Assembly: GCA_947477885.1 (NCBI GenBank)
Contig: CANJUD010000001.1
Span: 1 to 64,000 of the forward strand
Direction of reading: 5' to 3'
DNA: 64,000 nucleotides
DNA from: Bacteroidota bacterium
GTDB lineage: Bacteria > Bacteroidota > Bacteroidia > UKL13-3
Numbering within the stretch: position 1 is the stretch's first letter; every line of letters begins with the position of its first letter. The notes below the pieces were generated by a model. That model made no database searches and was not told the DNA's origin. It was given only the letters and a program-made list of their open reading frames with translations. The position numbers were made by a program, and so were the translations under genes. Positions 6,922-60,939 of this stretch are shown here, piece after piece.

Positions 6922-6998
6922 AATTATGAATTCAGAATTACGATTGCTCTTATAATACACAACAAATCGTAGTTCGTAATTGCCCATTCGTAATTGAT
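6922..6998. repeat. Heptad-phased intergenic repeat, AATTACG family
   Basis: Five bases after the PKD gene stop, units such as AATTATG, AATTCAG and AATTACG follow one another at exactly 7 bases. The same register is regained at 6964-6998 in inverted form (AAATCGT, AGTTCGT, CATTCGT). The two halves can pair as a hairpin. A related copy lies at 60911. The rest of the gap to 7069 is AT-rich with no other recognisable signal. Confidence 0.7.
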
Positions 6999-7069
6999 CT
7001 AAAACATTCTCCCAAAAAATCTGTTCAAATAATAATCACAACTTGTAATTTGAAACTTTTATTATCATT

Positions 7070-7648
7070 ATGAATATATGTATCATCTCGGGTTCTCCCC
7101 GCATTAATTCCAATACCATCAAGCTTGCTAAGGCTATTGAGAATTTGGCCAAGGAGCACCATAACTTAAGCCTAATCGACTTTTCTAAGTGCGATATTCC
7201 TTTTGAAAGTCAGGCTAGAATGGAGAAAGGGAAGTTGAGCGATTTTCAACAAAACTTATATGATAGTATGGAAAAAGCACAACTGATATATATACTTTCG
7301 CCAGAATATAATTGGATGCCGAGTGCTGAGATTGTGAATTTCTTTAACCAAATGACGGGCAAAGAATATACTCCCATGTGGAACAATAAAGTATTTGCCT
7401 TAGGCGGTGTTTCCAATGGCCGTGGTGGTCGTATGCCTATTGTGCATATGGGTACCATGCTCAATAAAGTTTTGGGAATCATGCACCACCAAAGTTTTAT
7501 ATGTCCCAAATATTTTGAAGCTTATAATACGCCTGATCATATAGACGAAATGGGCAACTCAAAAGGCGTTGATGCCTATGATAAAAGCTTAAATAATTTT
7601 GTAGAGATACCTGTTCTTTTTGCAGCGAGATGGGCGAAGGGAGAATAA
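7070..7648 (+). CDS. NAD(P)H-dependent FMN reductase (flavodoxin-like fold)
   Basis: This 192-residue protein belongs to the NADPH-dependent FMN reductase family and should be a cytoplasmic flavoprotein that reduces FMN, quinones or similar acceptors with NAD(P)H. The N-terminus has the family's phosphate-binding loop, GSPRINSNT at residues 8-16. A second flavin-contact segment, SPEYNWMPS, sits near residue 80, followed by a GGVSNGRGG loop near residue 117. Length is normal for the family (about 180-195). It stands alone between the PKD gene and the convergent kbl gene; the start is the first ATG after an AT-rich leader. The physiological substrate cannot be told from sequence. Confidence 0.85.
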   Translation: MNICIISGSPRINSNTIKLAKAIENLAKEHHNLSLIDFSKCDIPFESQARMEKGKLSDFQQNLYDSMEKAQLIYILSPEYNWMPSAEIVNFFNQMTGKEYTPMWNNKVFALGGVSNGRGGRMPIVHMGTMLNKVLGIMHHQSFICPKYFEAYNTPDHIDEMGNSKGVDAYDKSLNNFVEIPVLFAARWAKGE

Positions 7649-7664
7649 GCTTATTATATATATA

Positions 7665-8855: not shown

Positions 8856-8871
8856 TTTATATTTAATTTAG

Positions 8872-8998
8872 TAGTCAGTAGTTAGTAAACAGTAATTAGT
8901 AGCTGACGCATCATACTGATTTGATGCCTGTGGTTGATGTGGTGAGCGGTCCCGAATAAGATTCGGGAGAACCATCACCAACCACGACACATGCAGTA
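8872..8998. repeat. Heptad repeat (CAG family) plus large hairpin with nested palindrome
   Basis: Five units in exact 7-base phase (TAGTCAG, TAGTTAG, TAAACAG, TAATTAG, TAGCTGA) run from 8872 to 8906. They are followed by a long imperfect hairpin (about 8930-8985) whose tip is the perfect inverted repeat TCCCGAAT-AAG-ATTCGGGA at 8950-8968. The element fills the gap between two minus-strand genes. It belongs to the same family as the copies at 37790, 43339, 51684 and 55699. Confidence 0.75.
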
Positions 8999-9000
8999 TT

Positions 9001-9624: not shown

Positions 9625-9638
9625 TTATAAAAAAAGTA

Positions 9639-10604: not shown

Positions 10605-10698
10605 AAATTTGTGCGAATTTAAGGGCAATCAAGTTTTTTATTGTTATCGATTAACGTTTTTTAGTTTGTTTTGTAACAAATATTTCACCAAAAAAACC

Positions 10699-11418
10699 AT
10701 GACCCTAAAAGACCTCGTCCGCGAAATACTGATACAGCTAAGGCTCGACCTCACCAAGAACCTGAAATACGACAGACTTACACGCATTATTATACAAAGA
10801 ACCGTGAACCCCAAATCGGTTTGTATAGATGTAGGCTGCCACAAGGGAGAGATTTTAGATTTGATATTGAAAGAATCTCCCAATCTGAAGCATTATGGCT
10901 TTGAGCCCATACCAGTATTGTATAATAATTTGGTTGAAAATTATAAAGACAAAGCACATATATATAATTGTGCACTAAGTGATAGCCAAGGCGAAACGAC
11001 ATTTAACTATGTAAAAAATGCCCCAGCCTACAGTGGAATTAAGCAACGGAAATATGCGGTTGAAAATCCGGATATTGAAACATTACACGTAAAATTAGAA
11101 AGGCTAGATGATATAATTCCTGAAGCAGAAAAAATAGATTTGATAAAAATTGACGTGGAGGGCGGTGAGTTTAATGTACTGAAAGGTGCTGTGAAACTGA
11201 TACAAAAGAATAAGCCTTATATCATTTTTGAAACAGGCTTAGGGGCAAGTGAGTTTTATGGCACCAAGCCAGAAGAACTTTATGATTTTTTCGAGAATGT
11301 ATTACAGTCGAAAATATATACTTTGCAAAATTGGATTGACAATAAATCTTATTTGAGGAAAGAGGAGTTTTTGAAATTATATAATACGAATGCGGAATAT
11401 TATTTTTTGGCTAAATAA
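10699..11418 (+). CDS. FkbM-family methyltransferase
   Basis: A 239-residue SAM-dependent methyltransferase. The SAM-binding motif I is VCIDVGCHKGE near residue 37, followed by HYGFEPIPVLYNNL and, later, the FkbM-typical IDLIKIDVEGGEFNVLKGA block near residue 155. FkbM enzymes usually O-methylate sugars or polyketide hydroxyls; in Bacteroidota they are common in glycan and capsule loci. The chosen start (MTLKD) avoids a 30-residue extension of non-family sequence. It is divergent from the MoxR gene, and a heptad repeat begins 3 bases after its stop. The substrate is unknown. Confidence 0.83.
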   Translation: MTLKDLVREILIQLRLDLTKNLKYDRLTRIIIQRTVNPKSVCIDVGCHKGEILDLILKESPNLKHYGFEPIPVLYNNLVENYKDKAHIYNCALSDSQGETTFNYVKNAPAYSGIKQRKYAVENPDIETLHVKLERLDDIIPEAEKIDLIKIDVEGGEFNVLKGAVKLIQKNKPYIIFETGLGASEFYGTKPEELYDFFENVLQSKIYTLQNWIDNKSYLRKEEFLKLYNTNAEYYFLAK

Positions 11419-11421
11419 AGG

Positions 11422-11470
11422 GTATAAAGACAAAAGTATAAAGTATAAAGACAAGGGACAAAAGACATCG
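11422..11470. repeat. Heptad-phased repeat (GTATAAA/GACAAAA) ending at a start codon
   Basis: Seven consecutive 7-base units (GTATAAA, GACAAAA, GTATAAA, GTATAAA, GACAAGG, GACAAAA, GACATCG) fill the gap between the FkbM stop and the ATG of the DUF2851 gene at 11471 without losing phase. No inverted arm is evident in this copy. Confidence 0.75.
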
Positions 11471-12778
11471 ATGGCGAACAAATTCAGCAATAATATCATC
11501 GAAGATTTTGTGCAGGCGGTGTGGCAGCATTTGTGGTTTGATATAAAGGGATTGCAAACGGTTGATGGGAAAGACATACAGATTATTAAGACAGGGCATT
11601 TAAACCGAAATTCAGGCCCAGATTTTTCGGAAGCTATGATAGAGATTGATGGAATTAAATGGGCTGGCAATGTGGAAATACATACCAAAAGCAGTGACTG
11701 GAAAATTCACGGGCACCAGAGAGACACAGCATATAATAATGTGATTTTGCATGTGGTATTATATCACGATGCTGATATACAGACGGCCAATAGCAATACT
11801 ATCCCAGTATTGGAATTGTATAAACGAATTAATCCTGCTTATATAGAAAAATATAAATATTTAATTGCCCAAGAACAATCGATTCCTTGCAAAGACTTGG
11901 TATATAAAGTTCCTGAACTAGAGAGAACACAGTGGTTGGAGAGACTTATCAGTGAAAGACTAGAATACAAGTCTCGCGGAATTTTTACGTTGCTTGCACA
12001 AACACAATCGCATTGGGAACAGGTTTTTTATATCACGCTTGCAAGCAATTTTGGTTTTCATGTAAACAAGCAACCTTTTGAGCAGCTTGCTTTCAACTTG
12101 CCTTTATCAATTTCGGGAAAACATAAAATCAATAAACTACAAATAGAATGTTTGGTATTTGGTGTGGCGGGTTTGTTAGAAGAAAGTATTATAGAAGATG
12201 TATATTATAATAGTTTGCAAAAGGAGTTTATACACCTTAAGAACAAATACCAATTAAAACCCATGGATGCAAGTCAGTGGCGGTTTATGCGGACAAGGCC
12301 AAGTAATTTTCCCAGTATCAGACTTGCACAATTTGCTGATTTAATATATAAATCATCGCATCTATTTTCAAAAATTTTGGAGATTAACAATATCAAAACA
12401 TTATATACATTAATCGATGTAGAGGCAAATGAATACTGGAAATCGCATTTTAAATTTGGCGACTCAGCAAATAATTCTCAGACACATCTTGGTTCTCAGG
12501 CAGCAGATATTATAATAATAAATACAGTTGCTCCTATATTATTTGCCTACGGAAAATATAAAAACGAACAACAATATATTGACCGGGCATTAGATTTTTT
12601 AGTTCAATTAAAATCTGAGAAAAACAGTATTATAACATTGTGGGAGAAGTATGGCATTAAAGCAGCCCATGCATCTGATTCGCAAGCTTTATTGCATCTT
12701 AAAAATGTATATTGTGATTATAAAAAATGTATGAACTGTAGTTGGGGGAGGTTGTTTATCAAAAATTCTCCGCAATAA
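11471..12778 (+). CDS. DUF2851 family protein
   Basis: A 435-residue protein of the Bacteroidota-enriched DUF2851 family. The N-terminal third holds the conserved block GPDFSEAMIEIDGIKWAGNV followed by EIHTKSSDW, H..H..D..YNNVILHVV (residues about 40-90). The spaced Asp, Glu and Lys there look like a PD-(D/E)XK nuclease core, but that is inference and the family has no firm function. The start at 11471 is preferred over an upstream in-frame start whose codons would be heptad repeat. Its last 20 bases overlap the 3' end of the convergent thiN gene. Confidence 0.82.
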   Translation: MANKFSNNIIEDFVQAVWQHLWFDIKGLQTVDGKDIQIIKTGHLNRNSGPDFSEAMIEIDGIKWAGNVEIHTKSSDWKIHGHQRDTAYNNVILHVVLYHDADIQTANSNTIPVLELYKRINPAYIEKYKYLIAQEQSIPCKDLVYKVPELERTQWLERLISERLEYKSRGIFTLLAQTQSHWEQVFYITLASNFGFHVNKQPFEQLAFNLPLSISGKHKINKLQIECLVFGVAGLLEESIIEDVYYNSLQKEFIHLKNKYQLKPMDASQWRFMRTRPSNFPSIRLAQFADLIYKSSHLFSKILEINNIKTLYTLIDVEANEYWKSHFKFGDSANNSQTHLGSQAADIIIINTVAPILFAYGKYKNEQQYIDRALDFLVQLKSEKNSIITLWEKYGIKAAHASDSQALLHLKNVYCDYKKCMNCSWGRLFIKNSPQ

Positions 12779-13418
12779 TCAATTCTCCACTATCATATTC
12801 TATCTTCACAAATCCATCTGCAATACTGTGGTTACTGGTCCCTGCACGATGACCTAAAATTAAACTTTCATCATTGAGATTATATGCAAGACCTGAGGTT
12901 TTTATATTGGTAACCGTGCCACAAGGAATTAAAGATATAATACTATTTGCTGGATACCACTTCTCGAATGATTTGGGTATTATATATTTTTTGGAATAAT
13001 TATCTATCATACTCAAAGTAATTTTTGTATGAAAGCGAGCCATATTAAAAAGGTTTGTAATGGTGTGGTCTATCCTATTTCCTGTGGCCCAAACAATATT
13101 CGCAGCATGATATTCCTCTTGTATTAAATATAATATTCCTTTGTCCAAATCAGTAAGTTCTTGATCAGGGAGATGTATTTTTTTTGTGTGCGAGAGGTGT
13201 GCAATTTTGGTGTCCAAATCAATAACAGAATCAAAGTCGCCAAGCACAACATCTGGATTAATTCCCATATCTAGAACACGATCTATTGCTCCGTCCAAAA
13301 CCAACACAAAAGGATTCCATTCCAATAGTTGTCCCAATAATTCTGTACTGCACGACTCACCATTGGCTATAATAAGTGCGGGTTCTTGCTTGTCTCTTAC
13401 TACGTGATGACTTGACAT
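12759..13418 (-). CDS. thiN: Thiamine pyrophosphokinase
   Basis: A 219-residue cytoplasmic enzyme predicted to transfer pyrophosphate from ATP to thiamine, giving thiamine pyrophosphate. Family motifs visible in order are VLDGAIDR (about 39-46), VLGDFDS (58-64), the substrate-binding DQELTDLDKGI (85-95), and TGNRIDHTITNL (112-123). The ANGE segment near the N-terminus fits the ATP-binding region. Length is normal for the bacterial type. It overlaps the DUF2851 gene by 20 bases at its 3' end. It lies under 2 kb from a TonB receptor controlled by a TPP riboswitch, so both may serve uptake and activation of external thiamine. Confidence 0.87.
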   Translation of the reverse strand: MSSHHVVRDKQEPALIIANGESCSTELLGQLLEWNPFVLVLDGAIDRVLDMGINPDVVLGDFDSVIDLDTKIAHLSHTKKIHLPDQELTDLDKGILYLIQEEYHAANIVWATGNRIDHTITNLFNMARFHTKITLSMIDNYSKKYIIPKSFEKWYPANSIISLIPCGTVTNIKTSGLAYNLNDESLILGHRAGTSNHSIADGFVKIEYDSGELIIAENF

Positions 13419-13420
13419 GC

Positions 13421-13455
13421 TGGGATATAGGAATTGGGAAATGGGAGTTGGGGCA
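13421..13455. repeat. Heptad-phased repeat (TGGGAAT family) before the thiN start
   Basis: Five units in exact 7-base phase (TGGGATA, TAGGAAT, TGGGAAA, TGGGAGT, TGGGGCA) sit directly upstream of the thiN start codon and just downstream of the GDP-fucose synthase stop. On the coding strand they read as CCCAATT-like units. Confidence 0.7.
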
Positions 13456-13469: not shown

Positions 13470-14402
13470 TTATGATATATGCTTGCTTAGGAAATCTTCG
13501 TAGGCGAGTTTGATTCCGTCTTCTAGATTTATTCTTGGTTTCCATCCGGTGGCAAATAGGCGGCTGGAGTCCATGAGTTTGCGGGCGGTTCCATCGGGAC
13601 GGGCAGTATCAAAAACAAGTTCGCCTTCGTAACCCACTACTTTTTTAATAAGCAATGCAAGGTCTTTTATACTCAAATCTTCTCCATATCCTACATTTAC
13701 AAATAATTCTTCATTATAGTTTTGCATCAAGTGGTAGCAAGCATCTGCCAAATCATCGGCATACAAAAATTCACGCAGCGGACTTCCCGTTCCCCATATA
13801 GTAACAGTAGGGCTTTGCTGTGTTTTGGCTTCCTCAAACTTACGAATAAGAGCGGGAAGCACATGGCTATTTTCTGGATGGTAATTATCATTGGGTCCAT
13901 ACAGGTTGGTTGGCATTACCGATATAAAATTACATCCATATTGACGGCGGTAACTTTCACAAAGTTTGATACCTGCAATTTTTGCAATAGCATAAGGTTC
14001 GTTAGTTTGCTCTAAAACTCCTGTTAACAAATATTCCTCTTTCATAGGTTGCGGAGCTGCTTTGGGATATATGCAACTAGAGCCAAAGAACATCAATTTC
14101 TTCACCTCGTTTTTATAGCTTTGATGAATGATGTTGTTTTGTATTTGTAAATTATCATATATAAAATCGGCACGATAAATATTGTTGGCTACAATGCCAC
14201 CCACCTTGGCTGCTGCAAGAAACACGTATTCTGGTTTTTCATTTTCGAAAAAACCCGTCACTGCTTGCTGGTTTCTTAGGTCCAACTCCGCAGAGGTACG
14301 CAGTACAAAATTGGTAAATCCTGCTTGCTGCAACCTACGGTGCATGGCTGAGCCCACCATGCCGCGGTGGCCTGCTATATATATCTTAGCTTCCTTTTCC
14401 AT
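13470..14402 (-). CDS. fcl: GDP-L-fucose synthase
   Basis: A 310-residue extended short-chain dehydrogenase. The NADP-binding loop is [10 protein letters not shown] (11-20). The catalytic set seen in E. coli Fcl is present as S108/S109 in GSSCIYPK, Y137 and K141 in YAIAK. The segment [20 protein letters not shown] is typical of GDP-fucose synthase. The enzyme epimerises and reduces GDP-4-keto-6-deoxymannose to GDP-fucose for surface glycans. GDP-mannose dehydratase is not in the window. It may be co-transcribed with thiN, from which only a heptad repeat separates it. Confidence 0.92.
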
Positions 14403-14887: not shown

Positions 14888-15121
14888 ATGGTGAAACAGA
14901 ACATGAGCAATCCTGACCACGGTATTAGAGCTTTAATAGTTATTACCCTGGTTGTAATTTGCTTTAGCGGAGCCGCTACTGGTGTATGGGCTATTGTCGA
15001 TTTGGGTGCAGCCTTTATCTTATTCGGAACTATTATAGTAGGCGTTTGTCCCATATACAAAGCATTGGGGATTAACACCAAACCGCAAGAAAACCTACAA
15101 AGTAAAACGCAATTGCATTAA
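14888..15121 (+). CDS. Small YgaP-like (DUF2892) inner-membrane protein, copy 2
   Basis: A 77-residue paralogue of the preceding gene, with two predicted helices and the signature GVCPIYKALGIN (52-63, Cys54). Shared positions with copy 1 include ITL.V, FS.x.A(S/T)GV and the Cys-Pro motif. The N-terminus (MSNPDHGIRAL) resembles the D-R-x-I-R start typical of DUF2892. I chose the ATG at 14888, since in-frame upstream sequence looks non-coding and contains an inverted repeat. The 3' end overlaps the convergent TonB receptor gene by 27 bases. Confidence 0.75.
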   Translation: MVKQNMSNPDHGIRALIVITLVVICFSGAATGVWAIVDLGAAFILFGTIIVGVCPIYKALGINTKPQENLQSKTQLH

Positions 15122-17278
15122 GAAATTGGTAAGGGCATTTGGGTAATAGTTATTATAATATTGCCTTTCGCCAGTAGAGAAGTTTGCATAGGTATACCCG
15201 TTGGTTGTATAGGTAGCATTTGTAATATTATTTGCTAAGAAACTTATATCTATTTGTTTGAACATTTTTGTTTTGATGGTATAGTTCACATGCAAGTCAA
15301 CCACTATAGAGGCATCTATACTTTGCAGTTTGTTTTGTGTATTGTCCAAATATTGACGAGATATATATTTGGTCGACAATCCAATTTGCAAATTTTTGAT
15401 AGGTGTAAATCTAAGTTGTGCGTACCCTATAATTGCGGGCGATAGAGCAATGTTCACCGAAGGATATTTCTCATATAATTTATTCTCCATCCAGTTTCCA
15501 TCACTGTCGTAATAGTCTAAATATTCATGGTAGTTTTTAATTTTATTTTGGCTTAAAGTAAGGTTTGCTATAATAATAAACTTGTCATTTATTTTATAGT
15601 TTAACTCAAACTCAACGCCAGCTCTGTAGCTTACGGGAACGTTCACACGGTTATAAGAACCTACATCATTCACACTACCATCGTTCACTAATTGGTTTTT
15701 ATAATACATATAGTACAGATTGGTATTAAAGTTAAAATCAGATTTGTGATAGTTCCACCCAAGCTCTGCATCTTGCATCATTTCGGGTTTGGGCACGCTG
15801 GTTTTTGAAGCATTGATAATATCACTACGCACAGGTTCACGATGTGAAATACCATAATATATATTTAATTTGTTAAATTTATTTAGTTCATAGTTAAGTC
15901 CTGCTTTGGGGTTAAAAAAATTATAACTGAGATGGTGCTTATAATCTACCAGTGTTCCATAATTATCATCATTCCCTTTTAGTTTATAATCAATAACTCG
16001 GTATTGTAAATCAACAAAATAATTTAATCTAGAATTTATTTTATTATAATATTTTGCAAACACGCTGGCTTCGTTCTTGGTAGATTTTCCTTCATAATAC
16101 TTTTGATTAATTTCGCTGTTTCCCGCATTGCGCACCCAAATTACTTCACCGTAGTTTTTACCTGCATATTTTGATGCATGCATGCCTACGGTTAGGTTTT
16201 TAAATTGTGCATTGGTCATCGCACCATAGTAGTTATTGTCCAACCAGCGGCGGCGTATCAAGTCTGAATTTGTGGTGGCACTATCTACAAAGATGGAATA
16301 TAATGATAGGGGTTGATCTTTTTTATATTCTTCGTAGTATCCATAACCTTTGGTGTAAAACAATGCTGTATTTACAATCACCTTTTTTAGTTTTTTGGTA
16401 TAAAAGGCTTGATAGTAATCTTGTTTATAATTGTCAGTTTGATTCTTATAGTTGAAATCGTTATAAACCCTATTGGGCAGCGTGTTTGCATCACCTTTCA
16501 ATATATATTCTGGAACACCATTCCATGCTTGACCTGTAATTTCTTTGCCCGAAAAATGTATGAGTTTAAATAAACTATTGTCTTTACTATATGTTGCTTG
16601 CAGATAATATGATTTTAAATCAGCCTTGCTACGCAGCACATACCCGTCCGAATTAATCATGGACAATCGGCCATCCACGGTCCAGTTATTGATTTTACCA
16701 GTTCCAAAATTGATATTATACTTTTGGCTAAAGCGATTTTTTGGAAAGGTAGCAAATCCACTTTTTTCAGGCGTGATATATCCAAATGAGGTGGCAAAAT
16801 TGGTATATGATTTTGTTGATTGTTCCAGGGTTTTCAAATTGATGCTGGCACCAAAAGCCGCGTTACCATTGGTACTGGTTCCCACGCCGCGTTGCACTTG
16901 TATATTTCCCGTACCCGAGGCAAAATCAGGCAAATCCACCCAATATATACCGTGGCTTTCGGCATCGTTGAGCGGTACACCATTTACTGTAACATTAATT
17001 CGGGTAGCATCTACACCGCGTATGCGAATGCCAGTATACCCAAACCCATTACCCGCATCGCTGGTAATTACGGTTGATGGTGTTCGGTTTAATAAATAAG
17101 GCAAATCTCGGCCGGTATTGTTGGCGTCTATTTCTTTTTTGCCAATGAGCGTATTGGAAGGATTGGCTTTTGCTCGTGTAGCGTTCACGTTTGCTTCGTC
17201 CAATGATTGGGATGTGTCGGTTTGGGCAAAAGCATAGTTTGTCAAGAGGCACAATAAAGTAATTGATAATATTTTCAT
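15095..17278 (-). CDS. TonB-dependent outer-membrane receptor, probable thiamine transporter
   Basis: A 727-residue protein with a signal peptide ending at YAFA-Q, a plug domain (about residues 45-165, with the R-I-R-G and NGVPLNDAESHG segments typical of TonB plugs) and a long beta-barrel ending in aromatic/hydrophobic FTL. It lacks the carboxypeptidase-like N-terminal domain of SusC proteins. A TPP riboswitch lies upstream on the same strand. In Bacteroidota, riboswitch-controlled TonB receptors of this kind have been proposed as thiamine transporters, so the substrate call is by context. The start MKILS was chosen because the signal peptide begins there; a longer frame would run back towards the riboswitch. 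Confidence 0.88.
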   Translation of the reverse strand: MKILSITLLCLLTNYAFAQTDTSQSLDEANVNATRAKANPSNTLIGKKEIDANNTGRDLPYLLNRTPSTVITSDAGNGFGYTGIRIRGVDATRINVTVNGVPLNDAESHGIYWVDLPDFASGTGNIQVQRGVGTSTNGNAAFGASINLKTLEQSTKSYTNFATSFGYITPEKSGFATFPKNRFSQKYNINFGTGKINNWTVDGRLSMINSDGYVLRSKADLKSYYLQATYSKDNSLFKLIHFSGKEITGQAWNGVPEYILKGDANTLPNRVYNDFNYKNQTDNYKQDYYQAFYTKKLKKVIVNTALFYTKGYGYYEEYKKDQPLSLYSIFVDSATTNSDLIRRRWLDNNYYGAMTNAQFKNLTVGMHASKYAGKNYGEVIWVRNAGNSEINQKYYEGKSTKNEASVFAKYYNKINSRLNYFVDLQYRVIDYKLKGNDDNYGTLVDYKHHLSYNFFNPKAGLNYELNKFNKLNIYYGISHREPVRSDIINASKTSVPKPEMMQDAELGWNYHKSDFNFNTNLYYMYYKNQLVNDGSVNDVGSYNRVNVPVSYRAGVEFELNYKINDKFIIIANLTLSQNKIKNYHEYLDYYDSDGNWMENKLYEKYPSVNIALSPAIIGYAQLRFTPIKNLQIGLSTKYISRQYLDNTQNKLQSIDASIVVDLHVNYTIKTKMFKQIDISFLANNITNATYTTNGYTYANFSTGERQYYNNYYPNALTNFLMQLRFTL

Positions 17279-17298: not shown

Positions 17299-17349
17299 AG
17301 CACCGCAAAATCGTGAGAAACACAAAGAAACCAAAAATGGCTTCTAACT

Positions 17350-17425
17350 CTTTTCCCTTCGCAGGTACTAGCCTGAGCAGGTTTTGAGGGTGTGATCTCA
17401 GTCCGTTTTGTGGACACCCCTAAAG
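17350..17425 (-). promoter_or_regulatory. TPP riboswitch (THI element)
   Basis: Read on the minus strand, the segment contains the conserved TPP aptamer blocks in order: AGGGGTGTCC, ACTGAGATCACACCC, AACCTGCTCAGG, and a final ACCTGCGAAGGGAA. The CTGAGA and GCGAAGGGA cores are the standard invariant parts. It starts about 145 bases and ends about 70 bases upstream of the TonB receptor start codon. TPP binding is expected to lower receptor expression. Confidence 0.92.
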
Positions 17426-17497
17426 ATTTATTTGGGTGCAATATTAAGGAAAAAATAGCATCCACATTAGATTTTATTTTCATAATATTGCAATCAG

Positions 17498-17601
17498 AAT
17501 CAAGTAGCTAGTATCAGGTATCAAGTACATGGCCAATTCGCAAGCGAATTGGAATATTGTGGGCGAAAGCTGGTAGCAAATACTTGATACCAGATACTAA
17601 A
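17498..17601. repeat. Heptad-based inverted repeat (TATCAAG family) with nested palindrome
   Basis: An 18-base arm at 17510-17527 (AGTATCAGGTATCAAGTA) is repeated in inverse at 17581-17598 with one mismatch. The arm is built from 7-base units TATCAGG and TATCAAG. Inside the loop is a perfect inverted repeat CCAATTCG-CAAG-CGAATTGG at 17533-17552. With the TPP riboswitch this explains most of the 330-base gap between the divergent TonB receptor and amidohydrolase genes. Confidence 0.8.
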
Positions 17602-20579: not shown

Positions 20580-20624
20580 GTTGTCTGTTATCAGCACTGG
20601 CGCAGATAACGGACAATTGACAAC
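20580..20624. repeat. Heptad-phased hairpin (TTGTCTG/TTATCAG family)
   Basis: Units TTGTCTG and TTATCAG are followed after eight bases by CAGATAA, CGGACAA and TTGACAA, giving a hairpin with one mismatch per arm. It sits between the amidohydrolase stop and the cyclophilin start. Similar units recur at 43381-43408. Confidence 0.65.
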
Positions 20625-20635
20625 CCGCAAACACC

Positions 20636-35299: not shown

Positions 35300-35329
35300 T
35301 ATTATTATATATATACGATTTAGAGTTTT

Positions 35330-35355
35330 GTCAGTCTGAGTTTATCGAAGACTAC
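35330..35355. repeat. Dispersed GTCA..TGAG..TCGAA-type repeat, nuoD/nuoE gap
   Basis: GTCAGTCTGAGTTTATCGAA plus an inverted end (GACTAC) matches two copies at 37139 and 37196. I recall similar 'CTGAGC...GTCGAA' units as common intergenic repeats in Bacteroidota. The ends can pair as a short stem. Confidence 0.6.
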
Positions 35356-37115: not shown

Positions 37116-37138
37116 TAATTATTTACTGTTTAGTTATT

Positions 37139-37164
37139 GTCATGTTGAGTGGAGTCGAAACATG
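37139..37164. repeat. Dispersed GTCAT..TGAG..GTCGAA repeat, nuoB/nuoC gap, copy 1
   Basis: GTCATGTTGAGTGGAGTCGA then AACATG; CATGTT and AACATG form the stem. Same family as 35330 and 37196. Confidence 0.65.
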
Positions 37165-37195
37165 CGATTATATATTTTTTATTTTTGACTGCCTT

Positions 37196-37220
37196 GCCAT
37201 CCTGAGCTTAGTCGAAGGAT
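37196..37220. repeat. Dispersed CATCCTGAGC..GTCGAAGGAT repeat, nuoB/nuoC gap, copy 2
   Basis: ATCCTGAGCTTAGTCGAAGG with ATCCT pairing to AGGAT. Its last base is the first base of the nuoB stop codon on the plus-strand map, so the repeat abuts the gene end. Confidence 0.65.
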
Positions 37221-37756
37221 TAGCTGATTTGATAAGAATCTTTCAAAGCTTTGTATTCAGGGCTGTTGCGGCGGTTTCCACTTTCGTGTTTCACCAATTC
37301 TTGTAGTTTTATAATGCCGTCTATAATCTGTTCGGGACGCGGAGGGCAACCGGGAACATATACATCAACAGGAATCACCTTATCAATTCCTTGCAATACT
37401 GAATAAGTATCGAAAATTCCACCGCTGCTGGCACAAGCACCAATGGCGATTACCCAGCGAGGTTCAGCCATTTGATCATATACTTGTTTCAAAACAGGAC
37501 CCAATTTTTTGGCGATAGTTCCTGCTACCAATAATACATCTGCTTGTCTCGGACTAAAACTCATTCGCTCCATCCCGAATCTTGCCAAATCGTAATTGGA
37601 ACCCATTGTTGCCATAAACTCGATGCCGCAGCATGAGGTGGCGAAAGGCAATGGCCAAAGAGAATTTGCTCTTGCCAGTCCTATTATTTTATCTACTCCT
37701 GTGGCAAAAAAACCAGGACCTTCAAATCCATCGGGGGCGTTTACTGTCTTAACCAT
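37220..37756 (-). CDS. nuoB: NADH-quinone oxidoreductase subunit B
   Basis: A 178-residue subunit that holds the terminal N2 [4Fe-4S] cluster of complex I. The paired cysteines C42-C43 in SCCGIEFMA, the one in GACASSGG and the one in VPGCPPRPE are all present. The C-terminus (after ELVKHESG) is short and variable. The 112-base gap to nuoA is filled by a heptad inverted repeat. Confidence 0.97.
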
Positions 37757-37789
37757 TTTGTATTTTATAGTTATAATTTTATTATAAGT

Positions 37790-37867
37790 GGTCAGTAAAC
37801 AGTGGTCAGTGGTCAGTAGCTGACGCCGAATAGCACTGTTTACTGACTACTGACCACTGTTTACTGT
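37790..37867. repeat. Heptad inverted repeat (CAG family) between nuoA and nuoB
   Basis: Four 7-base units (TGGTCAG, TAAACAG, TGGTCAG, TGGTCAG) precede the core TAGCTGACGCCGAATAGCA (37818-37836). The inverse units CTGTTTA, CTGACTA and CTGACCA follow. About 20 of 21 arm bases can pair. This is the clearest complete copy of the element. Confidence 0.85.
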
Positions 37868-37868: not shown

Positions 37869-38240
37869 TTACTTCTCCCATTCCAAGGCACCTTTTTTTA
37901 ACACATAGAAAAATCCGATCAGGAAAAATGCGACGAACATTACTACTGCCAAAAATCCGGGAGAGCCGAGGGATTTGAAATTGACAGCGTAGGGATAGAA
38001 GAAAATCACTTCCACATCGAACAATACAAACAGAATAGCAGTAAGGAAATACTTTACCGAGAATTTCACACGGGCATCGCCTTGGGCTTCAATACCACAT
38101 TCAAAATTATCTGTTTTGGTAGAACCTTTACTTTTTGGTCCAAGCATGGGGACTAATACTAGCACCAATCCTACAAAGCCTAAAGCTACAATACTCTGCA
38201 GCACAATGGGCATATAACTGGACGACGACGAATCTAACAT
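37869..38240 (-). CDS. nuoA: NADH-quinone oxidoreductase subunit A
   Basis: A 123-residue membrane subunit of complex I with three predicted helices. The loop between helix 1 and 2 contains TDNFECGIEAQGDARVKFSV, with the family's E-C-G motif, and the second helix ends FLLFDVE-like (FVLFDVEVIFFYP). It is the first gene of the nuo cluster on the minus strand. Confidence 0.96.
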   Translation of the reverse strand: MLDSSSSSYMPIVLQSIVALGFVGLVLVLVPMLGPKSKGSTKTDNFECGIEAQGDARVKFSVKYFLTAILFVLFDVEVIFFYPYAVNFKSLGSPGFLAVVMFVAFFLIGFFYVLKKGALEWEK

Positions 38241-41955: not shown

Positions 41956-43338
41956 ATGGCAACTAAGAAAAAAAGTAAACTGAAATATTGGGTAATTGGA
42001 GGAGTTTTACTGTTGATTATTTCGATAGTGGTAGCAGAAAAAATGGGCAGTAAAGAAGGAACCAAGGTTTCTTCAGAAAAAGTGATGAAAAGAGATATTA
42101 TAGAAATAGTAACTGCCAATGGCAAAATACAGCCCGAAACGGAATTAAAAATTAGTCCAGATGTAAGTGGACAGATTGTGGAGATGCTTGTGAAAGAAGG
42201 CGACTCCGTTATAAAGGGACAAGCATTGTGTAATATTAATCAGGATATGTATACGGTGGATGTTGACAGACAAAAAGCGGCATATCAAAATACCTTAGCG
42301 AGTGTAGAATCCGCTCGTGCCAGATTGAAACAATCAGAAGCAAGAACCGAAAGCGAGACTGCAAATTTTAACCGCATGAAAAAACTGTTCGACCAAAAAG
42401 TAATCTCACAAGCCGAATGGGAAGCAGCACGAAGCACCTACTTAACTGCAATTTCGCAAGTAGAAGCAGATAAGCAAAGTATTAACGCAATGGAATATAC
42501 GGTGAAGAGCTCGGAGGCTGGTGTACGTGAATCGCAGAAGCGTTTGAGTCGCACTACTATATATGCGCCCAAGAGCGGAACTATAAGTAAACTATATAAA
42601 AAGCAAGGTGAAAGTGTAGTAGGAACGAACCAAATGATGGGCACCGATATTTTATCAATTGCCGATTTAAATTATATGCAAGTGTCGGTAGATATAAATG
42701 AAAATGATATCGTAAAAATTAAGAAGGGAGATACTGCAATATTTTATATAGATGCATTTAAAGGACGTAAATTTAAAGGACTAGTTACTGAGATTGGAAC
42801 CTCATCAAATACAGCAATCACAACTACCGATCAGGTAACGAATTTTCCAGTTAAAATAAAAGTGCTACGCGATTCGTATTTAGATTTATGTACCACCGAA
42901 ACGCCTTACCCGCTTAAGCCCGGACTCAGTGTAAATGTTGACATACAAACAAACCGAGTGAAGCTGGTATGGTCGGTTCCTATTGAAGCTGTGGCGACTA
43001 GAGAGTTGAAAAAAGAGGAAGAAAAATTGGCGGACAAAGACAAGAAAAAAGACAAAAATAAAAAGAACGATCAAGAAGAATCAAATACTGATAATGTTGC
43101 AAATACAGAAGTAAAGCAAGATGCTGAAGAAATTGTATTTATTATAGAAAATGGTGTCGTGAAAAAGAAAGTGGTAAAATCAGGAATACAGGATGATAAT
43201 TATATACAAATAGAAGGACTGACAGGTAATGAAGAAATAGTAACTGGACCTTATGAAGCGGTTTCCAAGACTTTGAAGGATGGTGACAAAGTGAAGGTGG
43301 TGAAGAAGGAGGATTTATTTGAGGTGAAGAAGAAATAG
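41956..43338 (+). CDS. Efflux periplasmic adaptor (HlyD/MacA-type membrane fusion protein)
   Basis: A 460-residue adaptor with one N-terminal membrane helix (about 12-28), a biotinyl-lipoyl-like domain (SPDVSGQIVEMLVKEGDSV), a long alpha-hairpin (about 100-185) and beta-barrel domains. It links an inner-membrane pump to TolC. The C-terminal part carries a Lys/Glu-rich insert (about 355-395, KDKKKDKNKKNDQEE) that splits the membrane-proximal domain; this is longer than usual. A MacB-type ABC pump would be expected next but is replaced by a heptad repeat and a DUF2442 gene. Confidence 0.9.
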   Translation: MATKKKSKLKYWVIGGVLLLIISIVVAEKMGSKEGTKVSSEKVMKRDIIEIVTANGKIQPETELKISPDVSGQIVEMLVKEGDSVIKGQALCNINQDMYTVDVDRQKAAYQNTLASVESARARLKQSEARTESETANFNRMKKLFDQKVISQAEWEAARSTYLTAISQVEADKQSINAMEYTVKSSEAGVRESQKRLSRTTIYAPKSGTISKLYKKQGESVVGTNQMMGTDILSIADLNYMQVSVDINENDIVKIKKGDTAIFYIDAFKGRKFKGLVTEIGTSSNTAITTTDQVTNFPVKIKVLRDSYLDLCTTETPYPLKPGLSVNVDIQTNRVKLVWSVPIEAVATRELKKEEEKLADKDKKKDKNKKNDQEESNTDNVANTEVKQDAEEIVFIIENGVVKKKVVKSGIQDDNYIQIEGLTGNEEIVTGPYEAVSKTLKDGDKVKVVKKEDLFEVKKK

Positions 43339-43408
43339 TAATCAGTGGTCAGTAGTTAGTGGTCAGTGGCATTCGGCAGATAGCTGATAAAAGACAACAG
43401 ATAACAAA
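43339..43408. repeat. Heptad-phased repeat (CAG family) starting at a stop codon
   Basis: Immediately after the adaptor's TAG stop, ten 7-base units follow in phase (TAATCAG, TGGTCAG, TAGTTAG, TGGTCAG, then a reverse-type core and TAGCTGA, CAACAGA, TAACAAA). The core is degraded compared with 37790. Confidence 0.75.
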
Positions 43409-43419
43409 GAAACTATAAA

Positions 43420-50687: not shown

Positions 50688-51683
50688 ATGCTGCTTCGTA
50701 AAAAACCCGTTTTGTGCAATTATTATGTAACATATCGTTGCAATGCCAAATGTGGTTTTTGCGATATATGGGAAAAGCCAAGCCCTTATGTTACCCTCGA
50801 AAACGTAGAACAAAATTTAATACAGCTGAAAAAACTGGGTGTGAAAGTAATTGATTTTACAGGTGGTGAGCCCCTACTGCACCAAGACTTAGACAAACTA
50901 TTATTATTGGCAAAAAAATATAAATTTATCACCACGGTTACTACCAATACTTTATTATATCCCAAATATGCCAACAAGCTTAAGGGGTTAATAGACATGC
51001 TGCATTTTAGTTTAGACTCGGCAGACGAAGAAAAACATAATACAAGTAGAGGCGTAAAATTATATGATAAATTTGTAGATTCGCTGCAAATAGCCAAATC
51101 ATTGGGTGAGCGCCCCGATATATTATATACAGTTACCGAAAATAATATAAACGAAATAGAAGAAGTATATCATAAATTTTGCTTACCTAATAAATATATA
51201 TTAATTTTAAATCCTATATTTGAATATAACGGTGTAGGGAGTAAAATAAGCGATGCCCAATTGGATGAATTATTACAATGGGGTAAAAAGAAATATATAT
51301 ATTTAAACAAATCTTTTATCACACTTCGCAAAGATGGCGGCAACCATATTGATAAGCCTGTGTGCAAAGCTGCTACTACCAGTATTGTAATATCTCCGTT
51401 CAACGAATTGGTGATGCCCTGTTATCATTTGGGCGAAGAAAAAATGCAAATCAATAATAATTTAATAGAACTCCGTAACTCAGAAAAATCAAAATATTAT
51501 ATAGCCAACGAAGGCCGACTACCGGGCTGTGAAGGATGCACGGTGAACTGTTATATGCAACCCTCATTCAGTGTAAATGTAAATAAATATTGGGTAGACG
51601 CATTGCCTTCTACACTAAAATATAATATGTTAAAAGGAACTTGGAAAAAACTAAATATAGGAATAAATAAAGCAGCACTCTAG
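50688..51683 (+). CDS. Radical SAM protein with SPASM-like C-terminus
   Basis: A 331-residue enzyme. The [4Fe-4S] motif is C18-x3-C22-x2-C25 (RCNAKCGFC), followed by TGGEPLL for SAM binding. The C-terminal part has further cysteines (KPVCKAA, VMPCYH, GCEGCTVNC) that could bind an auxiliary cluster, as in SPASM/twitch proteins. The reaction is unknown: it could act on a peptide, a lipid head group or a sugar. Its neighbours are envelope-sugar genes. A heptad repeat begins directly after its stop. Confidence 0.82.
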   Translation: MLLRKKPVLCNYYVTYRCNAKCGFCDIWEKPSPYVTLENVEQNLIQLKKLGVKVIDFTGGEPLLHQDLDKLLLLAKKYKFITTVTTNTLLYPKYANKLKGLIDMLHFSLDSADEEKHNTSRGVKLYDKFVDSLQIAKSLGERPDILYTVTENNINEIEEVYHKFCLPNKYILILNPIFEYNGVGSKISDAQLDELLQWGKKKYIYLNKSFITLRKDGGNHIDKPVCKAATTSIVISPFNELVMPCYHLGEEKMQINNNLIELRNSEKSKYYIANEGRLPGCEGCTVNCYMQPSFSVNVNKYWVDALPSTLKYNMLKGTWKKLNIGINKAAL

Positions 51684-51760
51684 TAAACAGTAGGCAGTGC
51701 CTCCTCGATAGCTATCGGGACGGCGTCAGCTACTGACCACTGTTTACTGACTACTAAAAT
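51684..51760. repeat. Heptad-phased repeat (CAG family, reverse core) with nested palindrome
   Basis: Starting at the base after the radical SAM stop, eleven 7-base units follow to just before lpxA. The core GGCGTCAGCTA (51722-51732) is in the opposite orientation to 37818. A palindromic insert, CGATAGCTATCG (51705-51716), sits in the core where other copies have only a few bases; the same palindrome core occurs alone at 22544. Confidence 0.8.
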
Positions 51761-55132: not shown

Positions 55133-55729
55133 ATGCTCAATATAAAAAAACATTTTGAAGAAGCAGCTAGTATATTATATACATTTAATGCTGATGATTC
55201 CAACTTTGCAAGTTTAGAAAAAGCGGGGCAATTGATGATAGATGCAATAAACAAAGGCAATAAAATAATAAGCTGTGGTAACGGAGGTAGTATGTGCGAT
55301 GCCATGCATTTTGCTGAGGAACTTACTGGCCGTTACCGTAATGACCGCAAGGCCATCGCTGCGATATCCATTAGCGACCCCAGCCATATAAGTTGTGTAG
55401 CGAATGATTATGGTTACGAATATATATTTTCTCGTTATATAGAAGCGGTAGGTAACCAAGGCGATGTATTGTTGGCAATCTCAACATCGGGCAATTCAAA
55501 AAATATTTTAAAAGCTATAGAAGCAGCCAAAAATAAAAACATCTATATAGTAGGATTAACAGGAAAGGATGGTGGACAAATGGCCAATCTTTGTGACGTG
55601 GAAATACGTGCCCCCCACAGCCCTTATGCTGATAGAGCACAAGAAATCCATATTAAGTGTATCCATTCCCTAATAGATTATATTGAAAGAGGAACTAGTA
55701 ATCAGTTAACAGTAGACAGTGGTCAGTAG
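55133..55729 (+). CDS. gmhA: Sedoheptulose-7-phosphate isomerase (SIS domain), repeat-derived tail
   Basis: A 198-residue SIS-domain isomerase that makes D-glycero-D-manno-heptose 7-phosphate for LPS core or S-layer glycans. Motifs: [19 protein letters not shown] (50-68), SNxSxx-type STSGNSKNI (122-130) and a C-terminal [13 protein letters not shown]. The last 11 codons and the stop come from the heptad repeat that starts at 55699 ([11 protein letters not shown] tail). The natural end probably lay near residue 187. Other sedoheptulose-handling SIS proteins, such as DiaA, are similar but less likely. Confidence 0.88.
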
Positions 55730-55852
55730 CTGACGCCGCATGGCACTGACTACTGATTACTGATTACTGACTACTGACTACTGATTACTGACCACTGATT
55801 ACTGACCACTGATTACTAACCACTGATTACTGACCACTGATTACTAACCACT
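55699..55852. repeat. Longest heptad array: inverted element plus 15 tandem heptamers
   Basis: Four left units (TAATCAG, TTAACAG, TAGACAG, TGGTCAG) and the core TAGCTGACGCCGCATGGCA are followed from 55746 to 55850 by 15 consecutive units of consensus CTGAYYA without phase loss. The last ten form five 14-base pairs that alternate CTGATTA with CTGACCA or CTAACCA. The left arm is read as the 3' end of gmhA. Confidence 0.92.
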
Positions 55853-55885
55853 AAAATAAAAAATAGAGTTATTCAATCTTTGCAT

Positions 55886-56230: not shown

Positions 56231-56287
56231 CTTTTAAATTGAAAATCAGCGATTAAATTTATTTTTTTTAGGCGAGTGTATTTTTTA

Positions 56288-56295: not shown

Positions 56296-56337
56296 CCTCA
56301 TTATAAAAGCAACTATTTTATCATATAGTAACCATTC

Positions 56338-59300: not shown

Positions 59301-59937
59301 ATATGATGATGATTTGGTAAACTATACTTATTTGCTATTACCATTTTATAATGAACCGCAAATAAAAAAATTAATCGACAAACAATTCCAAAGCAAAAAC
59401 AAAGAGTTTAGAATGCGTATTGTAATTGCAATGATTAAAGCAAAAGTACCTGTTGCTGATAGTATTATTATGCAGATTGCAGAAGATGACCAGTTACGCT
59501 ACAAACTATACCAACGTTTGTCGAGAATAAAGCGTTTAGATGTGTTCCCTGCAAAATATAAAACACAAGAAGCTATTGCCCGCTCTATCTTTATGAAAGA
59601 GGCAGTAAGTTCATATAGTTATAGTGGCAGCAGTGAGAACGAAGAAGATAAAAACAAAAAAGACAGTATTGTTTTATTGGATAAAAGGCTCACCACGTTT
59701 AAACATAAAACAGGGTATGTATACTATTATAAAGTACTAAAGAAAGACGATGAGCATAAAGAGTGGTATGTTGGTATCAGCGGCATGCAGCCCGAAGATA
59801 CATCTAAGATTTCGCTCGATGAAAAACTGACAAGTGGAAATACAGAATTGCTGGATGAATCGAAAAAACCTGAAGTTCAATTTGAAGAACTATTATATGA
59901 AATGAAACTAAAACGCCGCAGAGGCCGTGCAGATTAG
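56338..59937 (+). CDS. Large TraB/GumN-domain protein
   Basis: A 1199-residue exported protein; the N-terminal segment (about 10-28) is a signal peptide. Residues about 33-300 form a TraB/GumN domain: LLWEISGNGLKKPSYVYGTM with the GTMH motif, VDAVALEIN, and AVGAAHLPGKKGVLEYLRDRG with the second conserved GxxH. TraB/GumN (Tiki-like) proteins are predicted metalloproteases. The remaining ~900 residues hold three beta-rich units with similar starts (KEHGFSVMVPHTP, LHFTVTTPFKP), then an alpha-helical repeat-like region (about 780-1100). Such a large extension is unusual; typical members are about 280-350 residues. Role unknown. Confidence 0.8.
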   Translation: MSQKYSTNSYRYLACFLFIIVGFYASAQGNKKYQGLLWEISGNGLKKPSYVYGTMHVSSKVAFHLDDSFFMAIENVDAVALEINADSFMADLMRSERMEGRGGYGKIGTVGSEDFLLYDKKSELLHKALSLDQNVVNFLMYRSSGYRDNFEEDTYLDLYIYKTAKKLKKIHLGVENWEESERLMNEAAKARSDEPYDPKRSRAANKMDMDKELVDAYRKGDLDMLDSINHIEDPESYLEKAIYYRNRNMVTAMDSMYKLGKSLFAAVGAAHLPGKKGVLEYLRDRGYTVRAVKHVEKNSKRRDQLDKLHHPLNFIPQTATDGFFKVEVPGRLYETGMRGKMQLYLCTNLVNGVYFDISRVKLFAPFIGNSQDFVMKQIDSLLFENIPGKIIEMKTIKKNGYPGYDILNQTKKGDFQRYNIIVTPLEVMIFKMAGPDEFVKNKDGDRFFNSIELKEAPTATWQTYTSKEHGFSVMVPHTPLNNETSDEFRYTTGRLDYLAVDKSTDNAYMILQHSYSNLSYLEEDTFELNQMMDGFAQTENVKELNREIIKQKDHYAVKSKFTLNDRKVEALAVLKGSRYYIFAQSIPEGGSFDKRFIESIEFVKPQFKKLEEYIDTGLHFTVTTPFKPKKPAENSYSYYNSHSNKQGPQESETKVQLFTPPESEEAIRVEYYRYGKYSSAIDTGYFRRLVINNLNDSDLYVVKKSEKHEKDIHTYDVVYADTATARRHKYKFVLKGSVLYTLQCMTDSTEGESEFVTNFYNTFKPADTTIGRPLFVSKADTLIKDLFSMDSATKSQAVESIKDVWLTDKAYKMWMGAIDSFYFTKNYLDRKADMIEELGYGWKGRKRDTMVLDYLKKEYIKVGDTTTLQLAILRSMTRFMTQESFKTIKNILLSEAPIPSGSYELKGIFNNAEDSFKLARLWFPDLAKLNTIEEYKSGIYDLMSWLVDSNYLKPSDYAAYKVQIYNDARITLKRLQAKEEGGSTNNSEYDDDLVNYTYLLLPFYNEPQIKKLIDKQFQSKNKEFRMRIVIAMIKAKVPVADSIIMQIAEDDQLRYKLYQRLSRIKRLDVFPAKYKTQEAIARSIFMKEAVSSYSYSGSSENEEDKNKKDSIVLLDKRLTTFKHKTGYVYYYKVLKKDDEHKEWYVGISGMQPEDTSKISLDEKLTSGNTELLDESKKPEVQFEELLYEMKLKRRRGRAD

Positions 59938-60020
59938 GGTTATTAATATTATAGATAAATCGCATTTTTTTTATGTGTTAAATTGTTAATTATCTCAAAC
60001 GTTCATTTTTTTTATCAAAT

Positions 60021-60911
60021 ATGTCAATTCAAAATCTCCCCAATGGTCAATATCTGCAGCGTCTTATTATGCTGTGTGGGTTGTTTTTCCTGGGATTGTT
60101 TATACTTACTTTTCTAGCCGCCGCTGCCGCAGTAAAGATATATGGCATCCCTTGCGAAATATATAATTTATTTGATTATATAAAGAAACATCCCAACGAT
60201 GCCAGTACCATCAATGCACTTATTTTTACGCAGGTGATGAGTCAGATTATGGCTATGGCAATTCCTTTTTTGGTGGTAATGCAAATTACTTATCGCGAGC
60301 AAATGTATCATGAAACAGGGTTGCTAAAAATGCCCAAAATAATAATTATAGTATTGGTGTTAATTTTGTTTGCAGCCACACTTTACCCCCAAGGCTATTT
60401 GGAATATTTTAACGGCCTATTATTTGAAGGCAATAAAGAACAATCTGGTTTTATCACAGCCATGATAAAAGCAGATAATAGCAACGAATTGCTTATCAAT
60501 ATTGGGTTTATGGCATTTCTTCCCGCCTTATGCGAAGAGTTTTTCTTTAGGGGAGGCGTCTTTTTTCTCCTTAAAAAACTAACAGGTAAACTCTGGTTTC
60601 CTGCTATAGTTTCTTCCTTGTTTTTTGCCCTCACTCACGATCAGCCTAGCCAGATGATTGTTATATTTATCATGGGATTAATGCTGGCATTTGTATATGA
60701 ACTTACTGGATCACTTTGGATGAGTATTTTATTGCATTTTGCAAACAACTTGTTTTTTGTAGTTGCCGATTATTATAAAGTAGAATCTAATTTTAATTTT
60801 GAATCTTTATATAATATAGTAATAGCTATTTTTAGTTCATTAGTCGTTGCTGGAATATTTTGGTACTTGAAAAAACACAGACCAAAGGAAAACGAGGCAG
60901 CGTCAGCATAA
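60021..60911 (+). CDS. CPBP-family intramembrane metalloprotease
   Basis: A 296-residue membrane protein with about seven or eight helices. The Abi/CAAX-protease motifs are complete: E172-E173-F-F-F-R177 (CEEFFFRGG), H206 in FFALTHDQ, and H239 with N243 in LHFANN. It probably cleaves or modifies substrates inside the inner membrane. It lies 83 bases after the TraB/GumN gene. A heptad repeat begins at its stop codon. Confidence 0.92.
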   Translation: MSIQNLPNGQYLQRLIMLCGLFFLGLFILTFLAAAAAVKIYGIPCEIYNLFDYIKKHPNDASTINALIFTQVMSQIMAMAIPFLVVMQITYREQMYHETGLLKMPKIIIIVLVLILFAATLYPQGYLEYFNGLLFEGNKEQSGFITAMIKADNSNELLINIGFMAFLPALCEEFFFRGGVFFLLKKLTGKLWFPAIVSSLFFALTHDQPSQMIVIFIMGLMLAFVYELTGSLWMSILLHFANNLFFVVADYYKVESNFNFESLYNIVIAIFSSLVVAGIFWYLKKHRPKENEAASA

Positions 60912-60939
60912 TTCGTAATTTGTAATTTGAAATTCGCAA
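60911..60939. repeat. Heptad-phased repeat (AATTCGTA family) at the CPBP stop codon
   Basis: Four units in phase (ATTCGTA, ATTTGTA, ATTTGAA, ATTCGCA) start on the last base of the TAA stop. The same family occurs at 6922-6998. Confidence 0.7.

Follow-up and report, generated by a model that had tools for sequence, protein, structure and literature searches.

Intergenic repeats that advance by seven bases are known from several bacterial groups. The short tandemly repeated repetitive (STRR) heptanucleotides of cyanobacteria form direct intergenic arrays with a seven-base step, and the repetitive extragenic palindromes (REP/REPIN repeats) are short, asymmetric and present in many copies per genome; their stems are conserved, and the tag next to the hairpin is constant. 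Reports of a heptamer excess between bacterial genes go back to 2007, with polymerase slippage put forward as its origin (cited in PMC4692102 and PMC4679880). The parts of those two accounts that bear on the present case describe GGGAATC heptameric repeats in Xanthomonas, with 183–186 sets per genome and 70–75 inverted pairs, and mention that Calothrix has three tandem heptanucleotides (Rehm et al. 2015, PMC4692102); they also describe TAACTGA direct repeats in Beggiatoaceae, Cyanobacteria and five Bacteroidetes (MacGregor 2015, PMC4679880). Here we analyze a class of heptad elements in the first 64 kb of contig 1 (hereafter the window) of the genome of an uncultured Bacteroidota bacterium, 3.1 Mb in 25 contigs. 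The original prediction for this DNA, made from the letters alone, had named eleven period-7 gaps of unrelated unit families and had known of nothing of the kind described for Bacteroidota, a view that the TAACTGA arrays contradict. On these accounts, intergenic heptamers are already known in bacteria, Bacteroidota included, as are inverted pairs in Xanthomonas.

The seven-base period

We combined the window with 20 stretches of 20 kb picked by place, ignoring repeats (464 kb in total). Intergenic identity at lag 7 is 0.320 ± 0.002 compared with 0.279–0.290 at lags 5, 6 and 8–13; for the multiples 14, 21 and 28 it is 0.311, 0.305 and 0.294. Lags 1–4 give 0.298–0.320, such raised values at short lags being usual in any composition-biased DNA. 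Coding DNA carries no signal, with a lag-7 identity of 0.269. At a calling threshold of at least 12, we count 54 period-7 arrays against 1.2 in shuffles (five, first-order), and other periods from 4 to 15 yield 0–3 arrays, except period 14 with 35. The arrays occupy 42 of 269 intergenic gaps. Head-to-tail 7-nt units in excess over other periods characterize bacterial intergenic heptamer repeats, and the predicted genome-wide class with a strict seven-base step is confirmed both by autocorrelation and by comparison with shuffled controls; its proposed resemblance to the STRR repeats, in step and in intergenic position, is likewise supported.

Counted with overlaps, the pattern AGTNNNNAGTNNNNAGTNNNNAGT matches the window 24 times and finds no match in 100 shuffles, and three AGTRRWY heptads followed by AGTR match the genome 694 times with overlaps, the reversed pattern not once. 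At its lowest threshold, Tandem Repeats Finder (TRF) reports period 7 at nine of the eleven places, mostly with low scores (31–42; 118 at 55745). The two places that it leaves unreported, 6922 and 20580, show heptad-like arms by eye, and the orthologous gaps of a congener (G001) hold clear elements.

Inverse arms and a shared core

Many of these arrays serve as arms of an inverted repeat that is centered on a core, GCTGACGCC(GNATGGC). This anatomy of inverse arms, a core and a usual limit of four units per arm had been missed by the original prediction. The commonest complete form is 79 nt long and reads AGT(N4AGT)4-N-core-ACT(N4ACT)4, with a core of 16 nt. The complete pattern has 19 matches, of which 11 measure exactly 79 nt; the longer ones carry core inserts, in two cases a CCCGATA palindrome. 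The core box AGTAGCTGACGC occurs 69 times in the genome with at most one mismatch, compared with 5 times for the reversed pattern. Where at least three left units are required, the AGTRRWY left arm at the core has exactly four units in 36 of 52 cases; the right arm has four in 20 of 52 and is absent in 17. A peak at four units is also seen over all arrays, where it is partly set by the score threshold, and we therefore use only the core-anchored counts. With its fixed size and terminal inverted repeats, the main family AGTRRWY has the form of a miniature inverted-repeat transposable element. Its common words are AGTAATC, AGTAGTC and AGTGGTC; AGTGATC appears once in the 44 arms listed, possibly through avoidance of GATC. 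Core-bearing segments also stand in tandem in L055 (6012–6216, 102-nt spacing) and L029 (11974–12130, 78-nt spacing).

The excess of inverse arms was measured in a larger sample of the source genome (G000) that was not chosen by core (724 kb, 94 arrays). An inverse stretch that agrees with the array's own unit in at least 17 of 21 bases accompanies 23 of the 94 arrays, compared with 7 when units of other arrays are used; at 15 or more of 21 bases the counts are 38 and 19. A separate inverse partner array lies within 250 nt of 19 of the 94, whereas permuted units give a mean of 2.5 and at most 11, so that closely paired arrays of opposite orientation, as in Xanthomonas, are present here. A core-like sequence lies within 80 nt of 42 of the 94 arrays, compared with 193 of 2000 random intergenic points (9.7%), which places about half of the arrays visibly in the core class.

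Among 19 minimal cores from G000, fetched regardless of loop, 18 have the loop GNAT, where N stands for A, C or T; so do 27 of 29 from the two congeners, most of them in stretches selected by a pattern that includes the loop. We take it to fit the very stable DNA hairpin motif d(cGNABg). The DNA folds of three elements, on both strands, have z values of −8.2 to −9.1.

Several heptad families share this core. Grouping by eye the heptads that precede the cores listed (75 in G000, 31 in G001 and 9 in G002), we find six families before GCTGACGCC in G000: AGTRRWY, AAGGRRT, GATTTAC, TGRTTAA/TGATGAA, TTGATTT and CCGAAGC. GATTTAC is counted here with its GATGTAC/GACATAC variants, and the total exceeds six if these are kept separate. 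G001 adds GGATTCG, TGGAAGT and AGGCAGT, and G002 adds GTGGTAA/GTGGTAT. AGTRRWY is the largest family, with several others present, rather than one word dominating the genome. Thus the families that had been called unrelated do differ in their words, but several of them have one core in common. The bases that immediately precede the core change with the heptad (GTA, GGA, GTG, GTT, TTT, TGG) and form no constant tag. Judged from the unit sequences, the G-tracts that form a quadruplex are not a general feature of the heptads: GGG is absent from AGTRRWY, GATTTAC and TGRTTAA, though some units, of the AAGGGGT and GGGATTT type, do carry it. Different families stand to the left and right of one core in only a few cases; this was called at 5 of the 41 cores with both arms, and two further mixed elements were recognized by eye, at 43339 in the window and at L057:13493. 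An explanation of the 7-nt unit by stop codons in all frames was rejected: stops are found on both strands in 6 of 23 units (shuffled 4.7 ± 1.6) and in 8 of 19 (shuffled 5.6 ± 1.8), which is no clear excess.

Heptad elements in the window, with their adjoining genes and the orthologous gaps of two congeners
Element	Coordinates	Strand	Make-up	Adjoining genes	Orthologous gaps
gmhA	55697..55855	+	4 AGTRRWY heptads on the left, about 15 heptads on the right; core GCTGACGCCGCATGGC 55729-55744	gmhA (SIS-domain gene, 55133-55729); stop TAG 55727-55729 at end of left arm; last residues and stop codon supplied by element	G001 without element; G002 AAGGRRT element with GCTGACGCC
nuoA-nuoB	37787..37865	+	complete, 79 nt: AGT(N4AGT)4, A, GCTGACGCCGAATAGC (37819-37834), ACT(N4ACT)4	nuoB (37220-37756, -); nuoA (37869-38240, -)	words by eye: AGTRRWC (G000), AGTCGTT (G001), AGTTATT (G002)
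8872	8870..8909	+	4 AGTRRWY heptads and core box AGTAGCTGACGC; right arm absent		G001 keeps word, with similar arm and core variant; G002 without element
radical-SAM gene	51681..51758	-	AGTRRWY arms; core GCTGACGC at 51723-51730 with inserted CCCGATAGCTATCG palindrome	radical-SAM gene (50688-51683); stop TAG forms first bases of element	
mixed (by eye)	43336..43415	+	AGTRRWY left arm; part-core GGCATTCGGC; GAYAAMA right arm	starts at TAG stop of gene 41956-43338	
6922	6921..7005	.	weak inverse heptads GAATTAC / GTAATTG		G001 GGGATTT heptads and GCTGACGCC
11422	11417..11470	+	GTATAAA / GACAAAA heptads	ends at start codon (11471) of DUF2851 gene	G001 ATGATGA-type heptads; G002 no clear array
13421	13421..13452	+	TGGGAAA heptads	between genes 12759-13418 and 13470-14402	G001 GGGATTT heptads; G002 GGATTCG heptads, then GCTGACGCC
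17498	17498..17599	.	TATCAAG-family inverse arms 17498-17527 and 17581-17599	divergent gap	G001 near-identical; G002 missing; arm recurs elsewhere in G001 and G002
20580	20580..20632	.	short inverse arms TTGTCTGTTATC / GATAACGGACAA		G001 ATCAAGT element
60911	60909..60934	+	AATTCGT / AATTTGT heptads	starts at TAA stop of gene 60021-60911	G001 single TTACGAA / TTCGTAA units

The 17498 element adjoins a thiamine pyrophosphate (TPP) riboswitch at 17337–17431 (minus strand), upstream of a TonB-dependent receptor gene (15095–17278, minus strand). This riboswitch is the only Rfam match over the window at gathering score, and the heptad elements match no known RNA family there. Repeats other than the heptad elements occur in gaps of the nuo operon at 35329–35350 and 37138–37165; of the nuo-gap repeats, TGTCAGTCTGAGTTTATCGAAG was counted 9 times over 1.28 Mb of G000 and twice over 0.41 Mb of G001, and TGTCATGTTGAGTGGAGTCGAAACATGC has one exact copy, with partial matches elsewhere in G001. 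At 8950–8990 and other loci there are GTGGTTGGTG and CCCGAATA..ATTCGGG repeats, which match 48 and 22 times, respectively, over 1.28 Mb of G000 and rarely in the stretches of G001 and G002 (4 and 1; 2 and 1).

Kept gaps, changed words and wider distribution

G001 and G002 are the two congeners of the source genome. In stretches not chosen by core, a congener array is found in 9 of 11 gaps that hold a G000 array, compared with 5 of 39 gaps without one; by eye, 7 or 8 of the 11 occupied gaps hold. In core-chosen stretches the corresponding counts are 19 of 23 and 4 of 23. By the automated measure, the word at shared gaps is different in 20 of 28 cases and the same in 8. The comparison of orthologous gaps in the two relatives thus shows the gap mostly kept and the word mostly changed. 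At L059:5973, for example, the words are AGTRRWC, AGTCRTT and AAGGRRT in G000, G001 and G002, respectively, and at L052 AGTRRWC in G000 is replaced by AAGGRRT in G001 with an identical core orientation. By eye, the orientation of the core is not always kept between congeners (L075, L057:16276).

The core is specific to the genus. With at most one mismatch, GCTGACGCCGNATGGC occurs 29, 35 and 9 times in G000, G001 and G002, compared with 0–2 times in each of 94 other genomes of the family and class; the reversed control gives 0 or 1. In 20 stretches from 18 genomes of 12 other genera of the family, there is no period-7 excess (0.296, among 0.294–0.301), and 171 intergenic segments of these stretches contain 2 arrays at period 7 and 4 at period 8.

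Farther away, seven-base arrays reappear. The nearest matches of nuoB, taken as the best 80 with records very close to the window possibly excluded, come from uncultured and named Bacteroidota at 74–85% protein identity. Their 80 loci contain 74 period-7 arrays, in 31 of the loci, and other periods from 4 to 15 give 2–12 arrays, except period 14 with 50. An inverse partner accompanies 28 of the 74 arrays, where permuted units give a mean of 3.6 and at most 10. By eye, TTTTAGA / TCTAAAA-like arms lie in the nuoA–nuoB gap of 8 of the 16 Flavobacterium-labelled loci (L164, L166, L167, L173, L176, L177, L178 and L181) among 41 loci inspected for that gap; we did not see a GC-rich core in these examples by eye. 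Hymenobacter loci carry TTAGCTG / CAGCTAA-like arrays.

Origin, role and relation to known repeats

The excess of inverse arms, the genus-specific core, the four-unit arms, the several families per core and the kept gaps with mostly changed words can be brought together in one explanation, which we favor while giving it somewhat less than an even chance: a dispersed non-coding hairpin repeat that is inherited by position and whose arms are replaced around the core by copying from one copy to another. Under this explanation, copies would pass down by position, the sites being inherited, and arms would be replaced from other copies in the same genome. Stalled hairpins could give rise to this through template switching or gene conversion, and the core would be the junction that the copies share. 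We infer this role for the core because it is common to the families and is the place where the words change in mixed elements. Arm replacement would lead each lineage to drift to its own words, and slippage in 7- or 14-nt steps would make rare long arrays only. It may also be, with less force, that the folded single strand at the core is what matters and that the element acts at the DNA level. Most likely the element is selfish or neutral DNA tolerated at gene ends, and we assign it no cellular benefit.

Several observations weigh against arm copying around a core. The explanation covers only the core-bearing part of the class, and 52 of the 94 arrays in the 724-kb sample lack a core-like sequence inside 80 nt. 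Among 126 distinct cores of the three genomes, 41 have two arms of called families, 47 have one and 38 have none. Of the five cores called as mixed, two are clear (L199 and L252); the words of L202 are close to each other, and the second arm lies far off in L048 and L033. In G000, an element's own arms pair no better than swapped arms (17.9 vs 18.4; 0.643 vs 0.674), and the pairing is between word families. Words of three units are shared between loci only modestly, in 28 pairs compared with 12.5 ± 3.6. Inspecting orthologous gaps and their flanks by eye, we saw no mobilizing gene, target duplication or clean empty site. The automated comparison has faults as well: of the nine partner arrays in the unchosen set, two are false by eye (G001 55729 and G002 8855), the partner named at G002 55729 is a wrong stretch beside the true element, and the call of same or different word is noisy in both directions. 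In the AAGGRRT set of G001, own arms do pair better than swapped ones (0.620 vs 0.554; 3 of 500 shuffles), perhaps through a shared phase. In-register pairing of the arms was considered and rejected, with 0.612 at offset 0 and 0.641 and 0.627 at shifts of −7 and −14. The weak locus-specific pairing and the modest sharing of long words leave room for another writer of the arms, and the kept gaps with changed words hint at an unexplained way of rewriting repeated DNA.

Alternatively, the element may act on mRNA as a 3′-end hairpin that stabilizes or ends transcripts, its structure being kept while the sequence drifts. We regard this as possible, though doubtful. A role on mRNA had been read from the placement of ten of the eleven arrays between co-directional genes. 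The count itself stands when open reading frames and Pfam hits are used, with 17498 as the exception and a low-scoring minus-strand gene call of 138 nt (7025–7162) discounted, the acceptance of which would make gap 6922 convergent. With all families pooled, however, arrays occur in 27 of 178 gaps between co-directional genes, in 7 of 39 convergent gaps and in 8 of 52 divergent ones (p = 0.86), and in view of this lack of preference the ten of eleven reflects the make-up of the gaps. The argument from gap class fails for the pooled families and survives for AGTRRWY alone: among gaps of 60 nt or longer in the 724 kb, it is absent from all 72 divergent ones and present in 21 of the 265 others (p = 0.011); in a 1.0-Mb sample that includes stretches selected by core, the counts are 5 of 104 and 58 of 394 (p = 0.005). 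For this main family an mRNA role is possible. Its array edges lie within 15 nt of a stop codon in 48 of 68 cases, 33 of them overlapping the stop (search floor −14), and outnumber those within 15 nt of a start codon (24 of 58). One element folds very stably as RNA (−43.9 and −46.9 kcal/mol), the AGTN-core pattern in co-directional gaps is antisense in 27 cases and sense in 9 (p = 0.004), and part of the Xanthomonas account reports that most of the comparable repeats there are transcribed (PMC4692102). Against these stand the GATTTAC arrays, 6 of whose 14 gaps are divergent, the even orientation of all GCTGACGCC cores in co-directional gaps (26 sense, 23 antisense) and the lack of in-register pairing between the arms in G000. 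Moreover, one element lies within the nuo operon and therefore cannot act there as a strong terminator.

The other origin suggested at the outset was slippage during replication. It would be neutral and proceed by 7-nt steps set by the contact length of the polymerase, as proposed in the literature on simple sequence repeats, and we think it unlikely. Long arrays with 7- and 14-nt steps do occur, including one of 465 nt in L023 and arms of 31 and 33 units, and the half of the arrays with no core nearby would suit it. The four-unit mode at cores, the inverse arms and the common core do not, and the period-7 signal is flat in the 20 sister-genus stretches. In 44 arms, neighboring units are equal in 11 of 132 cases (0.083) compared with 0.148 expected (p = 0.04), a slight avoidance, and units two apart are equal in 18 of 88 compared with 0.132 expected (p = 0.06); these are weak signs against plain slippage. 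Slippage alone fits poorly and accounts for the few long arrays only.

By analogy with the ribbon-helix-helix omega proteins, which stack on heptads every 7 bp, the arms could form a binding array in which a protein stacks on five AGT boxes. The complete copies have five AGT per arm, inverse about the core, but one binder would not read the several words found per genome and per core, and this reading seems improbable to us. We give slightly less credence still to a REP-type repeat moved by an HUH (Y1) transposase of the REP-associated (RAYT) kind. The repeat is palindromic and extragenic with an asymmetric core, there are four Y1_Tnp matches in each of G000 and G001, and the Y1 gene at G001:C214 has an AGTRRWY array some 300 nt away. 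G002, however, has elements yet no Y1_Tnp match, GCTGACGCC is absent within 900 nt of all eight Y1 matches, the G001:C214 gene is flanked by its own, different palindromes, and neither a constant tetranucleotide tag by a conserved palindrome nor an associated Y1 gene is found, the bases before the core following the heptad instead. This Y1/RAYT-like gene (L243:3650–4310) has palindromes of the AGTCCCTTTAGGGAC / AGTCCCTATGGGACT type. The writing of arms by a template-carrying, telomerase-like reverse transcriptase is very improbable and fits poorly: the words are lineage-specific and change at fixed places, but they also differ from unit to unit inside one arm, and the RVT_1 profile has no match in G000 (99.88% complete) or G002 and one in G001. 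Y1 placement and these profile results leave both enzymes unsupported as makers.

Beyond the genus, the repeat may be one instance of a hairpin class recognized by shape and core and not by the sequence of the stem, in which both stems are rewritten together at fixed places into species-specific seven-base dialects; that such a class extends patchily over Bacteroidota, and perhaps to Xanthomonas and Cyanobacteria, is a speculation that we put forward with low confidence. The four-unit mode, the single core with several words and the changed words at kept places turn the copying and homogenizing of dispersed bacterial repeats into a testable question, and they caution against calling such hairpins terminators or regulatory sites from a single genome.

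The STRR repeats are direct arrays, in contrast to the inverse arms here, and the REP/REPIN repeats differ in that the stems of our elements vary by family and the tag is not constant. The TAACTGA repeats are alike in being intergenic heptamers, sometimes mixed with other heptamers and absent, in some close relatives, from the corresponding gap; they differ in being direct repeats of one exact word, with one inverted case in the main genome and, in the parts of that account considered here, no core described (PMC4679880). Our elements stand apart by the presence of several words on one core and of a different word at the same place, and we found no such core-centered, word-changing heptad element in the literature searched, which was mostly open access. 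The Xanthomonas repeats are G-rich, use one word per genome and have been studied as quadruplexes, and the available part of that account describes no conserved core, no several words per core and no change of word at the same place (PMC4692102). Its repeats otherwise correspond closely to ours: degenerate intergenic heptads, mostly of four units and in inverted pairs, that lie close to the upstream open reading frame, and are rarer in divergent gaps. In two species most of them stand between the same genes, though their length and sequence vary extensively (PMC4692102).

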